A stretch of DNA of 45,897 nt from a virus, in the IMG/VR virus record IMGVR_UViG_3300044718_000026, positions 1-45,897 of that record. The stretch is one strand, 5' to 3'. This document shows positions 2,626 through 45,897 of the stretch, piece by piece. Position 1 is the first letter of the stretch. Every line of letters starts with the position of its first letter. Made by a program: the position numbers and the translations under genes. The notes under the pieces are model-generated. The model was not told the origin of the DNA. It saw nothing but the letters and a program-made list of their open reading frames with translations, and made no database searches.

Positions 2626-2661
2626 CCACGCCGAGAGTTACGCGGCTGTACTACTGGCTGC

Positions 2662-2667
2662 TAATCT
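2662..2667 (+). promoter_or_regulatory. -10 element of probable leaderless promoter
   Basis: TAATCT fits the actinobacterial TANNNT -10 box and ends six bases before the ATG at 2674. There is no Shine-Dalgarno sequence in front of that ATG, so transcription probably begins at the start codon. Confidence 0.5.
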
Positions 2668-2673
2668 GTGCCA

Positions 2674-2874
2674 ATGGGAGATCTAGTAACCACACGCGAG
2701 GCTGCGGCGCTGCTGTGCGTGTCCTGGCAGCGCGTGCGGCAGCTAGCCGACTCGGGCGAGTTGACGAAGTTCAAGAACCCCAAGACACGGCAGATTCGCT
2801 TTAGCCAACAGCAGGTACTTGCTCTGCGCGCAGCGCGCGACAAGTGGCGTGCAGAGCAAGGAGCGACCGCATGA
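2674..2874 (+). CDS. Helix-turn-helix DNA-binding protein (excisionase/MerR-like)
   Basis: The 66-aa protein is built almost entirely of a winged helix-turn-helix: TTREAAALLCVSWQRVRQLA followed by a SGELTKFKNPKTRQIRFS wing. This is the layout of the MerR/excisionase (HTH_17) family, which covers phage Xis proteins and small regulators. No integrase gene was found in the genome, so a regulator or origin/partition factor is as likely as an excisionase. The ATG at 2674 is chosen because TAATCT is ideally placed for a leaderless transcript; a GTG six bases earlier is the alternative. Confidence 0.75.
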   Translation: MGDLVTTREAAALLCVSWQRVRQLADSGELTKFKNPKTRQIRFSQQQVLALRAARDKWRAEQGATA

Positions 2875-29867: not shown

Positions 29868-30046
29868 CAGCTTGTCTCCTTCCACTTACCCCCACTGAGG
29901 ATCTGCGCCGCTCGACGTGACTCCTCAGGCGTGCGTAGTGGCGTCCCCGAGGGCACCAGACCACGGCCGCACGGGATGCACCGCACACTGCCGTTGTCCT
30001 GCCGCCACCCGGTGCTGTTCGTGCAGTTCGGGCATGTAGTCCACAT
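29867..30046 (-). CDS. Tiny zinc-ribbon protein
   Basis: The 59-aa protein reads MWTTCPNCTNSTGWRQDNG, then RCIPCGRG, a clean two-CxxC zinc ribbon. The ATG overlaps the FtsK-like gene's stop. It is the first of five Cys-rich genes downstream of the translocase. Confidence 0.75.
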   Translation of the reverse strand: MWTTCPNCTNSTGWRQDNGSVRCIPCGRGLVPSGTPLRTPEESRRAAQILSGGKWKETS

Positions 30047-31623
30047 CAGTGCGTTGCTCCGTTCAGGACTAGATCGCTCTGCGGCACGAAATCATCGCCG
30101 CACTTCTGGCAGACATGCACGAGCTCGGCCATAAGGGCTTGCTCTGTCTCGTCGGCTTCGAGGTCATCGTCGCCGAGGTCAAGCACGATTGGCGCACCCT
30201 TCGTATGCTTTGCCGCATCGCGATACTTCTGCGACCACTTACCGATATCGTCGGCAACGCCGTCGCGCTCGTCGTCATCGAGATAGGCCGCCCGATACTT
30301 AAGCGGGCCCTTGTCAGTCGACGTGTAGCCAATACCGGCGTTGGCGTCGCCTGGCGGGATAAGGTGTGCCGGGTACATTTTCGGATCGCCGAGGATCGTG
30401 CGCACCATGTCGTCACTGCCGACCCGCAGGCAGGTGATATAGGCGAACAGATCGCGGATAAGGCCGATGGCCTCCTTCTGCGTGAGCTGGCTGCAGGCAA
30501 TCACAGTGAAGCCGGCAGCGCGGCACTGCGACAGATAAACTAGGAATGCCTTAAGCGCGGGCACCTTCTTGCCGTTGATCGTGACCTTATTCTCGGCGCC
30601 GGCCATCATGGCGATTACCGTCACGAGCTCGTCGATAATCATCACGTCAAGCGGCCACTGCTCGTGCCCCGGTTCCCACTTACGCTTACCGGCAGCCTTA
30701 AGGGATGCCTGCTGCGCACCCATAGCGGCTAGCGCCTGCTCTAGGAATTCACACCACAGCGTTGCGTTGCTCTCGTACCGGTAGGCTTTATCGGCCAGGT
30801 TGAAAAACTCCTGGCCGCCCTTCGGGTCGTAAACCCGGGTGCGGAACGGTAGACGCTGCTTGCATAGCGACCATAGAATCATCCAACATTCGGACGACTT
30901 ACCAGAACCCAAGCCGCCGGCAATCAGTGTTGCCAGTCGTACATCCTTTCGCACTGGCAGTCCGTCAGAATCCTTACCGACCACGCAAACGCCAGTTGGG
31001 GGGTAGGGGGGCGGCGGCAGTTGGGAGGGCAGGATGACATCGGCGAAGGGGTCAACAAAGATGACGCGAAGCTGCGTCAGGTAAGGCCGCAGGGGGTGCG
31101 GCGACACGATCAGGTCTAGTGCCTTCCAGCGGGAACGCAGGACGCCGGCCTGATCGCCCTTGAAAGCCTCCGTGCCAGCGCCGATGTTGCTGCCATCCAC
31201 GGTGAGCACTAGCCCGCACGGCGTGCGCCTAATCCTGTTGCGACCCCACCGCTTGAGCTTGGGCACTTTGCGGCCGCCCGGTCGGTGCCCCCCGCTGTGT
31301 AGCGCATCCTCGATTGTCACGGTCTCGAACAGCTTTGCGCGGTGCATAGTCGGTGCCCAGGTGAGCCGAATAGCGGTGCGCCGGTAGCTAGACTTGACGG
31401 CCCTGACTAGACTTGACGTGCGAGTTAGCACGTCAGGGCCTACGGCAACGAGTAGCAGCCCGACGAGCACCGCGTATTCGAGCCACCCGGCACTTCCTAT
31501 TGCCGCCCAAGCGATCAGACCGACAATTGCCGCGCTTAGCGGGAAACGCACCGCGGTCTCCGCAAGGACCCAAGGCGCCGCGTGGATCGGTCGCCAGATT
31601 TGCGCTATCGCCTTGCTGGTCAT
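30046..31623 (-). CDS. FtsK/SpoIIIE-family DNA translocase (conjugation TraB-like)
   Basis: The 525-aa protein has two N-terminal membrane helices (about residues 27-44 and 50-66), then a motor domain with Walker A AGGLGSGKSSE (K242) and Walker B DVMIIDEL (D331, E332), and a C-terminal CQKC pair. The family pumps double-stranded DNA. In actinobacterial plasmids and integrative elements single proteins of this type carry out transfer. Its upstream partner is a DUF2637-like membrane protein, as in those elements. Role in a phage is not established: plasmid-like spread, partition, or host-chromosome handling are possible. Confidence 0.88.
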   Translation of the reverse strand: MTSKAIAQIWRPIHAAPWVLAETAVRFPLSAAIVGLIAWAAIGSAGWLEYAVLVGLLLVAVGPDVLTRTSSLVRAVKSSYRRTAIRLTWAPTMHRAKLFETVTIEDALHSGGHRPGGRKVPKLKRWGRNRIRRTPCGLVLTVDGSNIGAGTEAFKGDQAGVLRSRWKALDLIVSPHPLRPYLTQLRVIFVDPFADVILPSQLPPPPYPPTGVCVVGKDSDGLPVRKDVRLATLIAGGLGSGKSSECWMILWSLCKQRLPFRTRVYDPKGGQEFFNLADKAYRYESNATLWCEFLEQALAAMGAQQASLKAAGKRKWEPGHEQWPLDVMIIDELVTVIAMMAGAENKVTINGKKVPALKAFLVYLSQCRAAGFTVIACSQLTQKEAIGLIRDLFAYITCLRVGSDDMVRTILGDPKMYPAHLIPPGDANAGIGYTSTDKGPLKYRAAYLDDDERDGVADDIGKWSQKYRDAAKHTKGAPIVLDLGDDDLEADETEQALMAELVHVCQKCGDDFVPQSDLVLNGATH

Positions 31624-32390
31624 GCCGACACCTCGGATCGGCCGCTCTCGGCACGGACGGACTCGATCAGGGATCGCGCGGCACCAGTCCCGATGCCGAG
31701 GCGCGCGGCAATCGCAGCGCGACCCATGCCGGCGTTAACCAGCGGCCGCACGTCGTCAACGCTGGCCGGCTTCGTCCGTGGTCCCGACCCTGACGCTTCA
31801 ACTTTGTGGGGGGCGGTCGTTGATTTCCGGCTAGGCCGCGCTGGCGGCCAGCTCGGCAGGCCCTTGGCAGCACTGCTGCTCTGCTGGCTGGCTGCCGCCG
31901 GCACAGTGGGAAAATTTGACGGTGCCGGTGCTGCAGGGGGGAGTGCTGGCGCTGTGTCTGGCTGTGGCGTTGGTTCTGCTCGTCGGGTCGACGTTTCGCT
32001 AGCCAGCTCTCGCACATCGCGTGCACGCAGATGAACAGCAGCAACAGCCACACCGGGCGGCAGTGCTCCCACCGCCACAGCCAGCGCGGCCGCGCCAGGT
32101 GACGCCGAGCCGATCAGCCAGCCGTGGTAACTGGCCTGGCTAATCACACTGGCCGCACCGATGCCGTACAGGTTGGCTCGCGCCAGCCGTGCGACGTGGT
32201 CGCTCGTGCCTGGCAGCAGCCAGGTGGTGAGCGCGGTAATCACGTAGCCGTCGACACAGAACGGCAGCGCCACGGCCAGCGTGCCGAAACCAGCAAGCAC
32301 CCCGAGTGCCAGCCAGGTGGAGAACGACAGCACGAAGCTCGCCAGGATGGCGAGCAGGCAGGCCGCCAGGCTGATCTGTCGCATATTCAT
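31620..32390 (-). CDS. DUF2637-like membrane protein with C-terminal helix-turn-helix
   Basis: The 256-aa protein has four likely membrane helices in the first 130 residues (MNMRQISLAACLLAILASF start, and ALPPGVAVAAVHLRARDVRE at the end of the block). A Pro/Ser/Ala-rich linker follows, then VRPLVNAGMGRAAIAARLGI, a helix-turn-helix. DUF2637 proteins accompany FtsK-like transfer genes in actinobacterial mobile elements (spread proteins). The ATG at 32390 is chosen for GGAGG nine bases upstream. Overlap with ftsK is ATGA. Confidence 0.78.
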   Translation of the reverse strand: MNMRQISLAACLLAILASFVLSFSTWLALGVLAGFGTLAVALPFCVDGYVITALTTWLLPGTSDHVARLARANLYGIGAASVISQASYHGWLIGSASPGAAALAVAVGALPPGVAVAAVHLRARDVRELASETSTRRAEPTPQPDTAPALPPAAPAPSNFPTVPAAASQQSSSAAKGLPSWPPARPSRKSTTAPHKVEASGSGPRTKPASVDDVRPLVNAGMGRAAIAARLGIGTGAARSLIESVRAESGRSEVSA

Positions 32391-33302: not shown

Positions 33303-33487
33303 GGCGTCCACCTCCCGAGGGATCGGTCGAACCGCTGCCCGGTGTCGAGATGATCCCAACGACGATTGCGCCAGCCCTGCGCGTGCTTTCGCATGTGTGG
33401 GTCACGCTCGGATTCCTGCGCATATCGCGTGCAGGTGTCCAGCAGCGTGTTCCACTCAGGATTTTTAGTCCACTGCGGTTTATTCAC
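33299..33487 (-). CDS. Small hypothetical protein
   Basis: The 62-aa protein starts at GTG overlapping the regulator gene's stop. It reads NKPQWTKNPEWNTLLDTCTR and then a basic, His/Arg/Trp-rich region. No function is known. Confidence 0.6.
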   Translation of the reverse strand: MNKPQWTKNPEWNTLLDTCTRYAQESERDPHMRKHAQGWRNRRWDHLDTGQRFDRSLGRWTP

Positions 33488-33834
33488 TCCGCAGCACCGC
33501 CCTGCAAACGCTCGTGGAGCTCGGCGGCAGGCCGCTCGGCAATGCCCTCGGCAAGGAATACGGCTGCCCAACGGGCACCCGTGCGCTGAACAATCCCGGT
33601 AGCGTCGTAAATCTCGCGCCAGGTCATGCCGCGCTGGCGCAGTGCCCAGACAATCGCGCCGCCACGCTGCGCGTTGGCATGTGACACTCGGTGATGCTCG
33701 TCGTATCGAGCGGAAACAATTTTGCCGGCCTCGGCAAGCAATTGCGGAGTCACGGCGACCTCGGGGGAGTGTTGTCCGGGCAGAAGTTCAGCAAGGACGG
33801 CGACCACTTGCTCTGTCAGTTGCTCAGGTGTCAT
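33484..33834 (-). CDS. Helix-turn-helix regulator heading the leftward operon
   Basis: The 116-aa protein has an N-terminal helix-rich part (MTPEQLTEQVVAVLAELLPG), then ALRQRGMTWREIYDATGIVQ and RTGARWA, a sigma-like/resolvase-like helix-turn-helix. A perfect palindrome and a -10 box lie directly upstream of its ATG, so it may control itself and the whole operon down to 27371. No ribosome site is present, which fits a leaderless message. Confidence 0.72.
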   Translation of the reverse strand: MTPEQLTEQVVAVLAELLPGQHSPEVAVTPQLLAEAGKIVSARYDEHHRVSHANAQRGGAIVWALRQRGMTWREIYDATGIVQRTGARWAAVFLAEGIAERPAAELHERLQGGAAE

Positions 33835-33841
33835 AGCGGCG

Positions 33842-33868
33842 AGCTTAGCACTGCGCTTAGCGCAGTGC
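33842..33868 (-). promoter_or_regulatory. Promoter with overlapping palindromic operator
   Basis: GCACTGCGC-TTA-GCGCAGTGC (33848-33868) is a perfect inverted repeat with 9-bp arms. On the minus strand TAAGCT (33847-33842) abuts it as the -10 box and ends seven bases before the ATG at 33834. A protein bound to the palindrome would block the polymerase. Confidence 0.65.
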
Positions 33869-33886
33869 GCAACCCCTAGACAGCAC

Positions 33887-33919
33887 GAAACCCGCCAGCT
33901 CAGGGGACTGGCGGGTTTC
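33887..33919 (-). terminator. Hairpin terminator after the CDF gene
   Basis: A 12-bp perfect stem (GAAACCCGCCAG/CTGGCGGGTTTC) with a 9-base loop lies 32 bases after the CDF stop. Its core of 25 bases matches the hairpin at 34622-34650 at 22 positions. Confidence 0.75.
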
Positions 33920-33951: not shown

Positions 33952-34581
33952 TTACCCGGCGATCAGCAGCTTTGCATTACTGCGCCCGAGCTCTACGGCC
34001 ATGCCGGTGAGCAGCACTGCGATCAGGACTGCGGCCGCACCCGTCCACACCGCCGAGCCGGTGGCTAGCTGCAGCGCCGTGCCGACTATCGCCAGCGACA
34101 GGCCGGCGACGTCGAGTCCGTCCTCGATCGCCTGTGTCTTCATGGCGTTGTTGCTGGTCGTGCGCAGGTGCGCCAGCCAGGACTGGCCGTCGCGGCTCGG
34201 CGCCAGGGTGCGCAGCACCTGCACGAGCGAGGTGGACTCCAGTAGCGCGCTAGCCGCCAGGACGGCCAGGCTGGCCCACAGCAGGCCGGCGGCCACCTCA
34301 GGGTCGATGATCGACTGCAGGCCTTCCCACGCTGCGAAACCGCCACCCATCAGCGCCATGTTGACCGCGGCAATCAGGCCCCAGAAGTGCGGGCCCTTCG
34401 CCCAACTCTTGCCGTGCCACTCCCCGACGAGAAGCAGCGGGCCGGTCAGACTGTCGACCAGTGAGTGTGAGGCTTCTGCCAGCATTGCGGCACTGCCGCT
34501 GAACACACCGACTACGGTTTTCATACCGATTACAACGACGTTCACAGCGAGGGAATAGACCAGCGTCGACTTCGTGCTCAT
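33952..34581 (-). CDS. Cation diffusion facilitator (CDF)-family transporter
   Basis: The 209-aa integral membrane protein has about six helices. The second helix contains the family motif SGSAAMLAEASHSLVDSLTG (usual form LLADxxHSxxD, here E for the first D). The fifth has KTQAIEDGLDVAGL, where actinobacterial CDF proteins have a similar acidic pair. CDF proteins export Zn, Fe, Mn or related ions with H+ antiport. It lacks the usual C-terminal cytoplasmic domain of about 80 aa and ends right after the last helix. Its own promoter-like repeats and flanking hairpins mark a separate unit. Substrate cannot be told. Confidence 0.78.
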   Translation of the reverse strand: MSTKSTLVYSLAVNVVVIGMKTVVGVFSGSAAMLAEASHSLVDSLTGPLLLVGEWHGKSWAKGPHFWGLIAAVNMALMGGGFAAWEGLQSIIDPEVAAGLLWASLAVLAASALLESTSLVQVLRTLAPSRDGQSWLAHLRTTSNNAMKTQAIEDGLDVAGLSLAIVGTALQLATGSAVWTGAAAVLIAVLLTGMAVELGRSNAKLLIAG

Positions 34582-34593
34582 ACTTGTCTATCG

Positions 34594-34610
34594 CTAGCAC
34601 TGGCTAGTCG
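34594..34610 (-). promoter_or_regulatory. Promoter region with two GTRCTAR-type heptamers
   Basis: On the minus strand CGACTAG (34610-34604) and GTGCTAG (34600-34594) are spaced 10 bp apart, and TAGCGATAGACA follows as the -10 area, with the ATG at 34581. This is a looser form of the three-heptamer arrays at 37360, 42278 and 44530. No ribosome site precedes the ATG. Confidence 0.55.
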
Positions 34611-34621
34611 TTACAGCAGGA

Positions 34622-34650
34622 AGCCCGCCAGCTCTAGGAACTGGCGGGCT
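34622..34650 (-). terminator. Hairpin terminator upstream of the CDF unit
   Basis: A 10-bp stem (AGCCCGCCAG/CTGGCGGGCT) with a 9-base loop lies 12 bases beyond the stop of the leftward gene at 34663. It ends the upstream operon and isolates the CDF gene. Confidence 0.75.
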
Positions 34651-36114: not shown

Positions 36115-37146
36115 CTACTGCTGCGGCCAGGGCGGCTGCTGCTGTGCCGGCGGGCCGGCCTGCTGTGGTTGCTGCCACTGCGGCTGCTGTGGCGGTGCCG
36201 GCGACTGAACGGGCGCAGGGCCTTGCTGCGCTACGAACGGGCTATCGCTGGCCGGCGGGCCGGCCTGCTGGTACTGCTGCGGAGGCGCCTGCTGTACCGG
36301 TGGCTGGCCCTGCCACTGCGGCTGCTGTACCGGCTGGCCGGCCTGTGGGGCTGGCTGGCCCTGCCACTGCGGCTGCTGTGCGTACTGCTGCGGAGGGGCC
36401 TGCTGCACGATGGGCTGCTGGCCCTGCCACTGAGGCTGGCCCTGCGGCTGTGCCGGCGGTCCGGGCGGTGGCCCTTGCTGCTGTGGGGCTGGCTGGCCTT
36501 GCCACTGCGGCTGCTGGCCGTTCTGTGCCGGCGGGCCGGCCTGCGCGTAGGCAGGCTGCTGCATCGGTGGTGCCTGCTGGTACTGCTGCTGCTGTGCTGG
36601 CTGGCCCTGCCATTGCGGCTGTTGGGTCTGCTGCACCGGGGGTTGCTGTACGGGCTGCTGGCCAGGGTCAGGGCCCGACACCATGGCGTCGCCAGGGGGC
36701 GGCATCGGGACGAAATGACAAATATAGATTCGTCGATCCTTGCCGCCCTTCTTTTTACTAGGCTCGGTTCCGACGAGTGCAAAGTAGATCTGGCAACCCG
36801 TCCCGAAGCCACCGCCGGCCTTCGCTACCGCACGCTTGAACTCGCCGAACATAGAGCCGGGTGCGCTGCCGTTCTTTTTGATATGGATGACGCGCACACC
36901 GTCATCGAAGTCTCCGTTATCGCGCTCGTCAGTCTGGACAGTTGCAAGAATCTGCATCTTCTCGTTACCGTCATCCCAGAACAGCGGGGTTCCCTTGTCG
37001 AAGTCACGCTGCTGCGTCTCTACTGCATCCTGCAGCATGGTGCCGCCGCGCCAGCGTGGCTGCTGTGGGCTTGACATCCACGGTGAGGGGTCGTTTCCCC
37101 AGTTCATGCCCGAGGCGCCGCCGAGCATTCCGTCTTGATTTGGCAT
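36115..37146 (-). CDS. Probable ssDNA-binding protein with long P/Q-rich tail
   Basis: The 343-aa protein has a folded N-terminal domain (about residues 30-150: TPLFWDDGNEKMQILATVQT, GDFDDGVRVIHIKKNG, GTGCQIYFALVGTEPSKKKG) that looks like an OB fold found in actinophage replication regions. Residues about 160-343 are low-complexity with recurring QPQWQGQPA units. An SSB-like role is inferred from fold pattern and neighbours (nuclease, helicase, resolvase). GGAAGG precedes the ATG. Confidence 0.65.
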   Translation of the reverse strand: MPNQDGMLGGASGMNWGNDPSPWMSSPQQPRWRGGTMLQDAVETQQRDFDKGTPLFWDDGNEKMQILATVQTDERDNGDFDDGVRVIHIKKNGSAPGSMFGEFKRAVAKAGGGFGTGCQIYFALVGTEPSKKKGGKDRRIYICHFVPMPPPGDAMVSGPDPGQQPVQQPPVQQTQQPQWQGQPAQQQQYQQAPPMQQPAYAQAGPPAQNGQQPQWQGQPAPQQQGPPPGPPAQPQGQPQWQGQQPIVQQAPPQQYAQQPQWQGQPAPQAGQPVQQPQWQGQPPVQQAPPQQYQQAGPPASDSPFVAQQGPAPVQSPAPPQQPQWQQPQQAGPPAQQQPPWPQQ

Positions 37147-37350: not shown

Positions 37351-37357
37351 ACCCACA

Positions 37358-37386
37358 GCCTAGCACAGACTAGTACTCGCTAGTAC
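37358..37386 (-). promoter_or_regulatory. Leftward promoter with three 10-bp-spaced heptamers
   Basis: On the minus strand GTACTAG (37386-37380), GTACTAG (37376-37370) and GTGCTAG (37366-37360) follow at exact 10-bp steps, and TAGGCT (37363-37358) forms the -10 box. The same order is found at 42278-42306. It drives the SSB-like gene and those downstream of it. Confidence 0.75.
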
Positions 37387-42256: not shown

Positions 42257-42270
42257 CACGGTAAGACTAC
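42257..42270 (-). promoter_or_regulatory. Leftward promoter of the divergent region
   Basis: GTAGTCTTACCGTG on the minus strand contains TAGTCT (42269-42264) as a TANNNT -10 box. The three-heptamer array lies just upstream, so both promoters may share one regulator. A near copy is at 26950-26963. Confidence 0.5.
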
Positions 42271-42277
42271 CACAGAG

Positions 42278-42306
42278 TGCTAGCGAGTACTAACGGGTGC
42301 TAGGCT
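42278..42306 (+). promoter_or_regulatory. Rightward promoter with three 10-bp-spaced heptamers
   Basis: GTGCTAG (42278), GTACTAA (42288) and GTGCTAG (42298) are at exact 10-bp steps; TAGGCT (42301-42306) is the -10 box. It transcribes the DNA polymerase gene, with about 45 bases of leader. Confidence 0.75.
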
Positions 42307-44345: not shown

Positions 44346-44546
44346 ATGGATCGGGATATCGAAACGATTGTCGACATATTCGCCGCGTGGGATGCCGAGC
44401 CGTGGGTGCCCCAGAAACGACGAAGCGCCCTGGTATCCGACCAGAGCGCCACGCGTCGTTGTAATGCCACCACAAGTGGTCCTGACACTGCCTCGCACGT
44501 TGCGAGCACGGATCAAGATTACCAGATGAGTACTAACGACGGCTAG
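44346..44546 (+). CDS. Doubtful small protein spanning a hairpin
   Basis: The 66-aa frame follows the polymerase stop by one base, with an AGGTGG site. MDRDIETIVDIFAAWDAEPW looks protein-like, but the rest is Ser/Thr-rich and covers a terminator hairpin and the next promoter array. The N-terminus may be real and the remainder fortuitous. Confidence 0.35.
   Translation: MDRDIETIVDIFAAWDAEPWVPQKRRSALVSDQSATRRCNATTSGPDTASHVASTDQDYQMSTNDG
44417..44459 (+). terminator. Hairpin terminator after the polymerase gene
   Basis: An interrupted stem pairs ACGACG with CGTCGT and GCGC-C-CTGGT with ACCAG-A-GCGC, loop ATCCG, followed by TGTAAT. It ends the polymerase transcript before the next promoter. Confidence 0.6.
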
Positions 44547-44559
44547 CGTGCGCTAGCCT
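44530..44559 (+). promoter_or_regulatory. Rightward promoter with three 10-bp-spaced heptamers
   Basis: GTACTAA (44530), CGGCTAG (44540) and GCGCTAG (44550) are at exact 10-bp steps; TAGCCT (44554-44559) is the -10 box. The centre copy is degenerate. It starts the transcript that runs through the small genes into prim-pol. Confidence 0.7.
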
Positions 44560-44562
44560 GCA

Positions 44563-44598
44563 GGGTAGGTGGCCGACGACGCGGACGGCCACCTACCC
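44563..44598 (+). promoter_or_regulatory. 5'-end hairpin in the leader
   Basis: A perfect 13-bp stem (GGGTAGGTGGCCG/CGGCCACCTACCC) with a 10-base loop starts at or next to the predicted transcript start and ends 20 bases before the next ATG. No T-run follows. It could stabilise the message or act as an attenuator. Confidence 0.7.
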
Positions 44599-44618
44599 AC
44601 TATCGAGAGGACGTAGCC

Positions 44619-44942
44619 ATGCCGTGCCACCCTAGCGACGGCGAGCTCGTGCCCGCTGCCCTCATGCCGCACGCGGTGCTGTGGCCGCTGATCCGCAACG
44701 CTGCCAGCGTCGCTCTGTGGACGGATGACCCGGTGTCGATCCTCGGGCACATAGGGGGCATCACGCAGTACTGCCGCGGGGAGTGCGATCGAGACCACAG
44801 CGGCAGCGTGGTCTTGATACCCGACGTGGTGCTGCTCGAACTGCAGGCGAACGGGCACGACGTGCCGGAAACACAGAAGATCAACGGGAGAGAAGGCCGC
44901 GCAGCGTATTTGTTTGCTGTGGGTGCCGCACCGCCAGCTTAG
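44619..44942 (+). CDS. Hypothetical protein
   Basis: The 107-aa protein (MPCHPSDGELVPAALMPHAV) has a short C..H start and CRGECDRDH in the middle, then strands. GAGAGGA lies nine bases before the ATG. It is followed by a hairpin. No family is recognised. Confidence 0.65.
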   Translation: MPCHPSDGELVPAALMPHAVLWPLIRNAASVALWTDDPVSILGHIGGITQYCRGECDRDHSGSVVLIPDVVLLELQANGHDVPETQKINGREGRAAYLFAVGAAPPA

Positions 44943-45003: not shown

Positions 45004-45387
45004 ATGACCAGCACCGAACATAACACAACGCCCGATGACTCGACAGCGGGTAAGTTTGAGCGGTTCCACGCAGAGTCGCCCGAGGTCTACCGAACGCTAG
45101 TCGCCCTGGCGCGGCAGTGGGTGGTGAGAACGGGCCGTGCGCGTATCGGGATCGCCACGCTCTACGAGCGGGCACGCTGGGAACTAGCAATTAGCACCAG
45201 TGATCCCGATTTCAAGCTGAACAATACTTACCGTGCGTATTACGCGCGGCTGATTATGTTGCAAGAGCGTAACCTCGAACATCTGTTCGAGGTTCGCTCG
45301 AGCGAAGCTGACGAGTGGCTGGACGACGCACGCGCGACGTACGCACAGCGTGTTGACGGCGCACTGTCGAAGCTGCGTGCGTTGTGA
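45004..45387 (+). CDS. Conserved phage protein of unknown function
   Basis: The 127-aa protein reads FERFHAESPEVYRTLVALAR, then GIATLYERARWELAISTSDP and FKLNNTYRAYYARLIMLQER, a pattern shared by many phage and prophage proteins of unknown role. AAGGGG precedes the ATG. A nucleic-acid-related function is suggested only by the neighbouring prim-pol. Confidence 0.75.
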   Translation: MTSTEHNTTPDDSTAGKFERFHAESPEVYRTLVALARQWVVRTGRARIGIATLYERARWELAISTSDPDFKLNNTYRAYYARLIMLQERNLEHLFEVRSSEADEWLDDARATYAQRVDGALSKLRAL

Positions 45388-45548: not shown

Positions 45549-45897
45549 GTGCAATCCCGATGCCACTGACCGACCCCGAGGTAGCCCGAGCTCTCGACGT
45601 CGCGCGTGCCATGGCGCTGGCCGGCGTGCCTATCTTCGTGGCGCCACCGCGGCCAGGCAGCAAGGCTGGCTACGCGCTGCCCGACCAGTGGGAGAGCACC
45701 GCGGCCGATCCTTCGGCCGTCGACTCCTGGCGGCCAGGTTGGGCCCTGTGCGCCATCGGAGGGCACGTCTGCGACTTTGTCGACGTCGACCCTCGCAACG
45801 GGGGAACTGAGAGCGCAGAAGCTCTCTGGCAGGCCGGCCAGTTCCCCAACGCCTACGGCCTAGCGTTCACCCCGAGTGGCGGCACGCACCACCTGAT
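45545..45897 (+). CDS. Primase-polymerase / RepA-type ATPase (N-terminal part; continues at 1)
   Basis: The ATG at 45545 begins a 653-aa reading frame that crosses the junction into 1-1736 in frame. This part holds the first strands of the prim-pol fold (VARAMALAGVPIFVAPPRPG, then WALCAIGGHVCDFVDVDPRN). The last 127 bases repeat the left end. Confidence 0.93.
   Translation, partial: MSAIPMPLTDPEVARALDVARAMALAGVPIFVAPPRPGSKAGYALPDQWESTAADPSAVDSWRPGWALCAIGGHVCDFVDVDPRNGGTESAEALWQAGQFPNAYGLAFTPSGGTHHL
45771..45897. repeat. Right copy of 127-bp terminal redundancy
   Basis: Identical to 1-127. The frame of prim-pol is preserved from here to the left end, which shows the genome is circular or circularly permuted as assembled. 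Confidence 0.97.

Follow-up and report, generated by a model that had tools for sequence, protein, structure and literature searches.

Results

Genome and Gene Content

The window, meaning the whole stretch of DNA analyzed, is a 45,897-base virus record whose ends carry an exact 127-bp terminal repeat (1–127 and 45771–45897). Joined through this repeat, the record forms a 45,770-bp circle, on which prim-pol reads as a single uninterrupted ORF of some 650 codons spanning the joint. The G+C content is 64%, and 11.6% of the genome is noncoding by our home-made gene set. The terminase shares 57% identity with the terminases of Streptomyces phages Kromp and phiSASD1, and the polymerase, helicase, and exonuclease share only 26–34% with actinophage proteins; on these identities, the phage is a lone lineage with an actinobacteria-type gene set. 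Tyrosine integrase (PF00589) and resolvase/serine-recombinase (PF00239) domains gave no match in the phage genome in a search that found PF00589 in 14 of 14 control genomes and PF00239 in 10 of 14.

Elsewhere in the window, an FtsK/SpoIIIE-like protein (weak match) adjoins a DUF2637 membrane protein at 30046–32390 (minus strand), a pair reminiscent of actinomycete conjugative plasmids. A 280-nt part of the ORF at 45004–45387 (plus strand), whose product is a protein of unknown function (phrog_13625), is 70% identical in DNA sequence to mycobacteriophages TM4 and Sparky; this is the sole DNA-level match for 40.0–45.9 kb in the phage collection.

Heptamer Arrays at Gene Starts

The initial annotation placed three copies of a GTRCTAR-like heptamer, at exact 10-bp steps, ahead of the genes for DNA polymerase and the SSB-like protein and ahead of the prim-pol operon. 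Direct reading bears out both the copies and their positions at 42277 (plus strand), 37386 (minus strand), and 44530 (plus strand), with the polymerase array starting one base earlier than the 42278 first given. This array (42277–42306, plus strand), which precedes DNA polymerase A, matches GTRCTAR ×3 at 21 of 21 positions and reads GTGCTAG-CGA-GTACTAA-CGG-GTGCTAG-GCT, its heptamers occupying 42277–42283, 42287–42293, and 42297–42303. The array before the SSB-like gene (37357–37386, minus strand; likewise 21/21) reads GTACTAG-CGA-GTACTAG-TCT-GTGCTAG-GCT, with copies at 37386–37380, 37376–37370, and 37366–37360 and the −10 hexamer TAGGCT at 37362–37357. It begins 1 base past the stop codon of the exonuclease gene, and the SSB-like gene itself (36115–37146, minus strand) is annotated as SSB in Rhodococcus phages. 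Before the operon running into prim-pol, the array at 44530–44559 (plus strand; 18/21) reads GTACTAA-CGA-CGGCTAG-CGT-GCGCTAG-CCT, with copies beginning at 44530, 44540, and 44550 and the −10 TAGCCT at 44554–44559.

A fourth triple array, new here and absent from the initial list, lies over the start of a gene for a 66-aa HTH_17 protein (2648–2674, plus strand; 18/21). It reads GTACTAC-TGG-CTGCTAA-TCT-GTGCCAA and overlaps the ATG: six bases separate its −10 TAATCT (2662–2667) from the ATG at 2674. The gene has no Shine–Dalgarno sequence and is predicted to be leaderless. The region before the CDF gene, earlier grouped with the arrays, does hold two in-phase copies (34594–34610, minus strand; 12/14), reading CGACTAG-CCA-GTGCTAG-CGA; it is a weak site whose −10 would be TAGCGA, not TAGSCT. 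All five sites stand at gene starts in the same orientation as the downstream gene, and the five best sites all lie outside the coding sequences of our gene set, except where the 2648 array runs over the ATG of its gene.

Phasing Rather than the Heptamer Carries the Signal

Single GTRCTAR heptamers are not enriched (14 observed vs. 11.8 expected), so the signal is the 10-bp phasing. Triples matching at least 18 of 21 positions number six, all of them registers of the four arrays, whereas dinucleotide shuffles yield 0.05 on average and never more than 1; none occurs in the genome at steps of 7–9 or 11–15 bp. The arrays are thus not a product of chance. The earlier view of a shared promoter or operator class with its sites on one face of the DNA is supported. 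Equally dense copies in coding sequence were looked for and not seen, and shuffles fail to make them.

With a leave-one-out weight matrix applied to both strands, every held-out triple array fell within the top five positions, and only further arrays, in register or shifted, scored higher. The CDF site ranked 12th, and its full membership of the class is not supported. An unbiased repeat search ranked 37.36/42.28 kb first among inverted pairs (34 nt, 85%). Allowing up to one mismatch, GTRCTARNCT occurs at ten sites genome-wide, vs. 8.5 in whole-genome shuffles. Seven of the ten are intergenic (shuffles average 1.5, at most 5), comprising the arrays themselves (five sites) and two additional boxes. 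There is good support for the arrays being regulatory sites.

The Promoter-Proximal Copy Is Fused to a −10-Like Box

When the sites are aligned on the hexamer, the three arrays before the polymerase, SSB, and prim-pol units fill turns a–b–c, with copy c as an extended −10. The HTH_17-gene array fills turns b–c–d and extends over the start, and the CDF site fills b–c only, with an imperfect hexamer. The reported fusion of the last copy to a TAGSCT −10-like box is seen in all three triple arrays of the initial list. The triplet following copy c, the −10-proximal copy, is NCT in four of five sites, whereas other copies are mostly followed by CGN, which fits copy c being also a −10 box rather than a plain repeat.

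The sigma-A extended −10 pattern TGN-TANNNT is present as TGC-TAGGCT at 42297 (hexamer 42301–42306) and 37366 and as TGC-TAATCT at 2658; the 44550 copy deviates from it (CGC-TAGCCT). No TTGACA/TATAAT promoter pairs occur in 33.8–45.9 kb. For a mycobacterium, the literature records TANNNT promoters that lack a conserved −35, leaderless starts, and a TGN extension that raises promoter strength (PMC3898074). Conserved sequence ends at the array borders, apart from a preceding GA in three arrays, so the arrays are not copies of a larger mobile element. A resemblance of TAGSCT to an iron box was dismissed, since the palindrome arms that would flank such a box are lacking.

Additional Boxes and Hairpins

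A candidate extended −10, GTGGTAGTCT (42264–42273, minus strand; a consensus match only), abuts the polymerase array and would belong to a divergent leftward promoter of the helicase/exonuclease operon. With this leftward box, the polymerase array becomes a candidate shared divergent control region for the polymerase and the helicase–exonuclease operon.

Another candidate extended −10, GTGCTAAGCT (33842–33851, minus strand; also a consensus match only), lies 7 nt before the ATG of the HTH_23 gene (33484–33834). Intrinsic-terminator-like hairpins, 86% identical to each other, occur upstream of this HTH_23 promoter (33880–33915, minus strand) and directly upstream of the CDF site (34613–34648, minus strand). 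Each 36-nt hairpin precedes a small promoter-like site and a gene without a Shine–Dalgarno sequence (HTH_23, CDF), forming a repeated terminator–promoter cassette; near-identical hairpins before the two promoters are consistent with separately started units. The CDF gene (33952–34581, minus strand) encodes a 209-aa cation-efflux protein with matches in only three of 50,697 phage records, all uncultured large-phage.

A 13-bp perfect inverted repeat, GGGTAGGTGGCCG, with a loop of 10 (44563–44598, plus strand) coincides with or adjoins the site where the prim-pol operon transcript is predicted to begin and is a candidate 5′-end hairpin or palindromic operator; the fold of 44566–44640 has a z of −2.3. 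Just after the SSB array, a tiny ORF, MAGGIEIG (37330–37304, minus strand), with a strong Shine–Dalgarno sequence (GGGAGGTGATCTT-ATG) stands about 157 nt before the SSB-like gene and is a possible leader peptide.

A 66-aa HTH_17 Protein as Candidate Regulator

Two helix-turn-helix proteins had been put forward for binding tests. The HTH_23 protein at 33484 is not supported as regulator, its gene carrying a single GTGCTAAGCT box and no in-phase copies. The 66-aa protein (2674–2874, plus strand), a BldC/excisionase-type winged helix and the only HTH_17 protein in the genome, is the stronger candidate because an array of this class lies across the start codon of its gene. It is probably the regulator of the arrays, a regulator–site link drawn from this one autogenous array.

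Family assignment follows from a score of 28.1 bits against HTH_17 (PF12728; cutoff 27) over residues 4–54; the recognition helix reads SWQRVRQLA. Against TIGR01764 excise the protein scores 23 bits, below the cutoff of 28.8, and it matches PHROG families named excisionase and MerR-like regulator. BldC itself matches Pfam HTH_17, the same family; the phage protein is not among the matches of the BldC subfamily model NF033787 (BldC control, 107.9 bits), and BLASTP gave no alignment between the two. An excision-partner role seems unlikely because no integrase was found. Searches of phage and plasmid collections with the 66-aa protein gave no matches, phmmer against the PDB returned nothing useful, and a single-sequence AlphaFold2 model is unreliable (pLDDT 62.7). 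Rfam gave no match either.

Distribution of the Arrays Beyond This Phage

IMG/VR searches with the polymerase, exonuclease, prim-pol, and HTH sequences gave a sole close relative, contig L021 (8.2 kb), with 91% DNA identity to the part of the phage bearing the HTH_17 gene; comparative footprinting is thus limited to one array. The 2648–2674 operator is unchanged in L021, inside a 57-nt substitution-free block (2622–2678), and the adjoining hundreds of bases show 3 to 20 changes. The unchanged block is suggestive rather than strong evidence. No relatives with several arrays, in which regulator and site might covary, were found. Two other contigs, L022 and L023, have virion genes in common with the phage and lack both the HTH gene and the arrays.

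GTRCTAR triples are absent from 11 annotated actinophages (BaileyBlu, phiSASD1, Dubu, Dogfish, Shady, TM4, NBR1, Gustav, NS-I, NHagos, and phi674, with BaileyBlu, TM4, and NHagos covered in part only); Dogfish alone has another kind of triple at 10-bp steps, a GGTCGGG repeat. With its −10, the triple is practically absent from about 85,000 prokaryote genomes: the exact triple plus NCT has two matches there, which come from unrelated phyla and are each a perfect tandem repeat. Within the collections covered, then, the array motif is private to the phage lineage; the binding principle is a known one.

Exact triples do occur in 15 other IMG/VR contigs, mostly as tandem arrays in lower-GC viruses. 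They have no regular HTH_17 neighbor, and in the one adjacent case (L016) the array lies 3′ of the HTH_17 gene on the opposite strand. On these grounds we regarded the contigs as unrelated. Separately, GTACTARNNN arrays with 10-bp steps and 3 to >10 copies were noted in unrelated, lower-GC viral and bacterial contigs (L006, L010, L012, L013, L014, L017, and L032), possibly as operators or iterons of other small DNA-binding proteins.

Discussion

We give about an even chance to the reading that the arrays are operator–promoter units of one regulon, in which the HTH_17 protein most likely represses the replication operons and its own gene. The promoter-proximal copy would act as an extended −10 (TGN-TARNCT) needing little or no −35, and the copies one and two turns upstream would complete, with it, a one-faced direct-repeat operator. 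On these repeats the HTH_17 protein, for which no integrase partner was found, most likely assembles head to tail. Because an array covers the −35 to −10 region, the bound form would most likely block RNA polymerase, turning down the polymerase, SSB, and prim-pol operons once enough HTH_17 protein is present. At its own leaderless gene, the protein would repress through the array shifted one turn downstream over the start. We infer repression rather than activation because the array overlaps the −10; the shifted register at the HTH_17 gene and the missing −35 lend activation some weight.

The arrays might instead be regulatory sites of another factor, either a host regulator or a different phage protein (HTH_23 33484, for example). 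The genome encodes several uncharacterized phage genes, and the HTH_17 link is one site. We nevertheless hold this to be somewhat unlikely: The HTH_23 gene has no in-phase array, and the near absence of the exact motif plus −10 from prokaryote genomes argues against a common host regulon.

Rather unlikely, too, is an activator that, bound to the upstream copies, replaces the −35 contact, recruits RNA polymerase to the extended −10, and switches the replication operons on. Lambda CII works along such lines: One phage protein binds 10-bp-spaced direct repeats in several promoters and recruits RNA polymerase through them. In the phage, no −35 is recognizable and the first copy sits where one would be; the three a–b–c arrays and the regulator-gene array one turn downstream look as if activation and autorepression used different registers. 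Against activation, the last copy is the −10 itself, so that a fully occupied array should shut polymerase out; RDF-type regulators, Apl among them, repress where their sites overlap promoters; and mycobacterial promoters often lack a −35 anyway. The CII layout differs, in that TTGC half-sites (TTGC-N6-TTGC) flank the −35, an arrangement not found here. In the phage the repeat is GTRCTAR, its three copies extend into the −10, and the candidate regulator is of the HTH_17 family.

That no regulator is involved, the copies being overlapping or staggered −10-like elements (TGNTANNNT) from which host polymerase starts at several turns, is improbable. Copy b of the 37386 and 44530 arrays (TAGTCT and TAGCGT) could double as a −10 box, but most a and b copies lack the final T (CGA, CGG), and staggered starts require neither strict 10-bp phase nor the GTRC half. 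Replication iterons, stoperators, or an excisionase (att) site fit very poorly: Direct repeats do lie close to replication genes and the protein family includes excisionases, but the five co-oriented sites are dispersed at gene starts rather than in one cluster, the layout differs from the single-copy asymmetric stoperator, and no integrase was found.

The proposed repression by the HTH_17 protein has parallels among known systems. Pukovnik Xis, RdfS, and BldC fall into the group-17 HTH / HTH_17 grouping (PMC11963761), and both BldC and the RDFs (Xis, Apl) occupy direct repeats spaced by roughly one helical turn, assembling cooperatively in head-to-tail order (PMC11963761, PMC5859096, PMC7498355). 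Apl of phage 186 has seven operators at 10–11-bp spacing between pR and pL and represses both overlapped promoters (PMC7498355). Apl, P2 Cox, and lambda and Pukovnik Xis are small winged-HTH proteins whose direct-repeat operators, one turn (10–11 bp) apart, overlap promoters and regulate them (PMC7498355). The phage candidate is likewise a small winged-HTH protein, and the arrays, with their exact 10-bp step, would be its direct-repeat operators. Unlike those systems, it belongs to a phage in which no integrase was found, its putative operators extend over at least four transcription units rather than one switch region, and an operator copy, a heptamer and not a hexamer, is fused to the −10. 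RDF-type proteins are often loose in specificity, and the tight phage heptamers count against an RDF-like HTH_17 regulator.

Streptomyces BldC, which shares the HTH_17 domain with the phage protein, binds direct repeats head to tail in pleiotropic transcription control (PMC5859096). It recognizes AATTXXXXC at 9 bp in whiI, unlike the phage heptamers at 10 bp, and the phage protein lies outside its subfamily and does not align with it. Corndog gp14, from a Cluster O mycobacteriophage, is likewise small and Xis-like, and its phage is not clearly a temperate one (PMC4351075); in the portions of that report consulted, no associated helical-turn array is described, and the repeats of Cluster O, palindromes of 17 bases, mostly lie at a distance from promoters. 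Overall, the arrays look like a known kind of binding site in unusual, genome-wide use. By this analogy, and given its HTH_17 membership, its place outside the BldC subfamily, and the lack of a detectable tyrosine or serine integrase, the protein most plausibly works like Apl without the recombination half.

As a tentative extension, a phage without a detectable integrase may use an excisionase-type winged-helix protein as master switch of all replication operons and of itself, through head-to-tail filaments on three-turn operators that merge with extended −10 boxes and whose array register (a–b–c or b–c–d) sets the outcome. If so, the excisionase/BldC architecture would serve as a phage-wide early-gene regulator with no recombination role, and the four arrays with one 66-aa protein would form a clean natural system for the action of helical-turn direct repeats and filament assembly on a −10 box. 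It would also suggest a search rule for regulons of uncharacterized actinophages: an in-phase array upstream of a small HTH_17 gene, and then its copies elsewhere in the genome.
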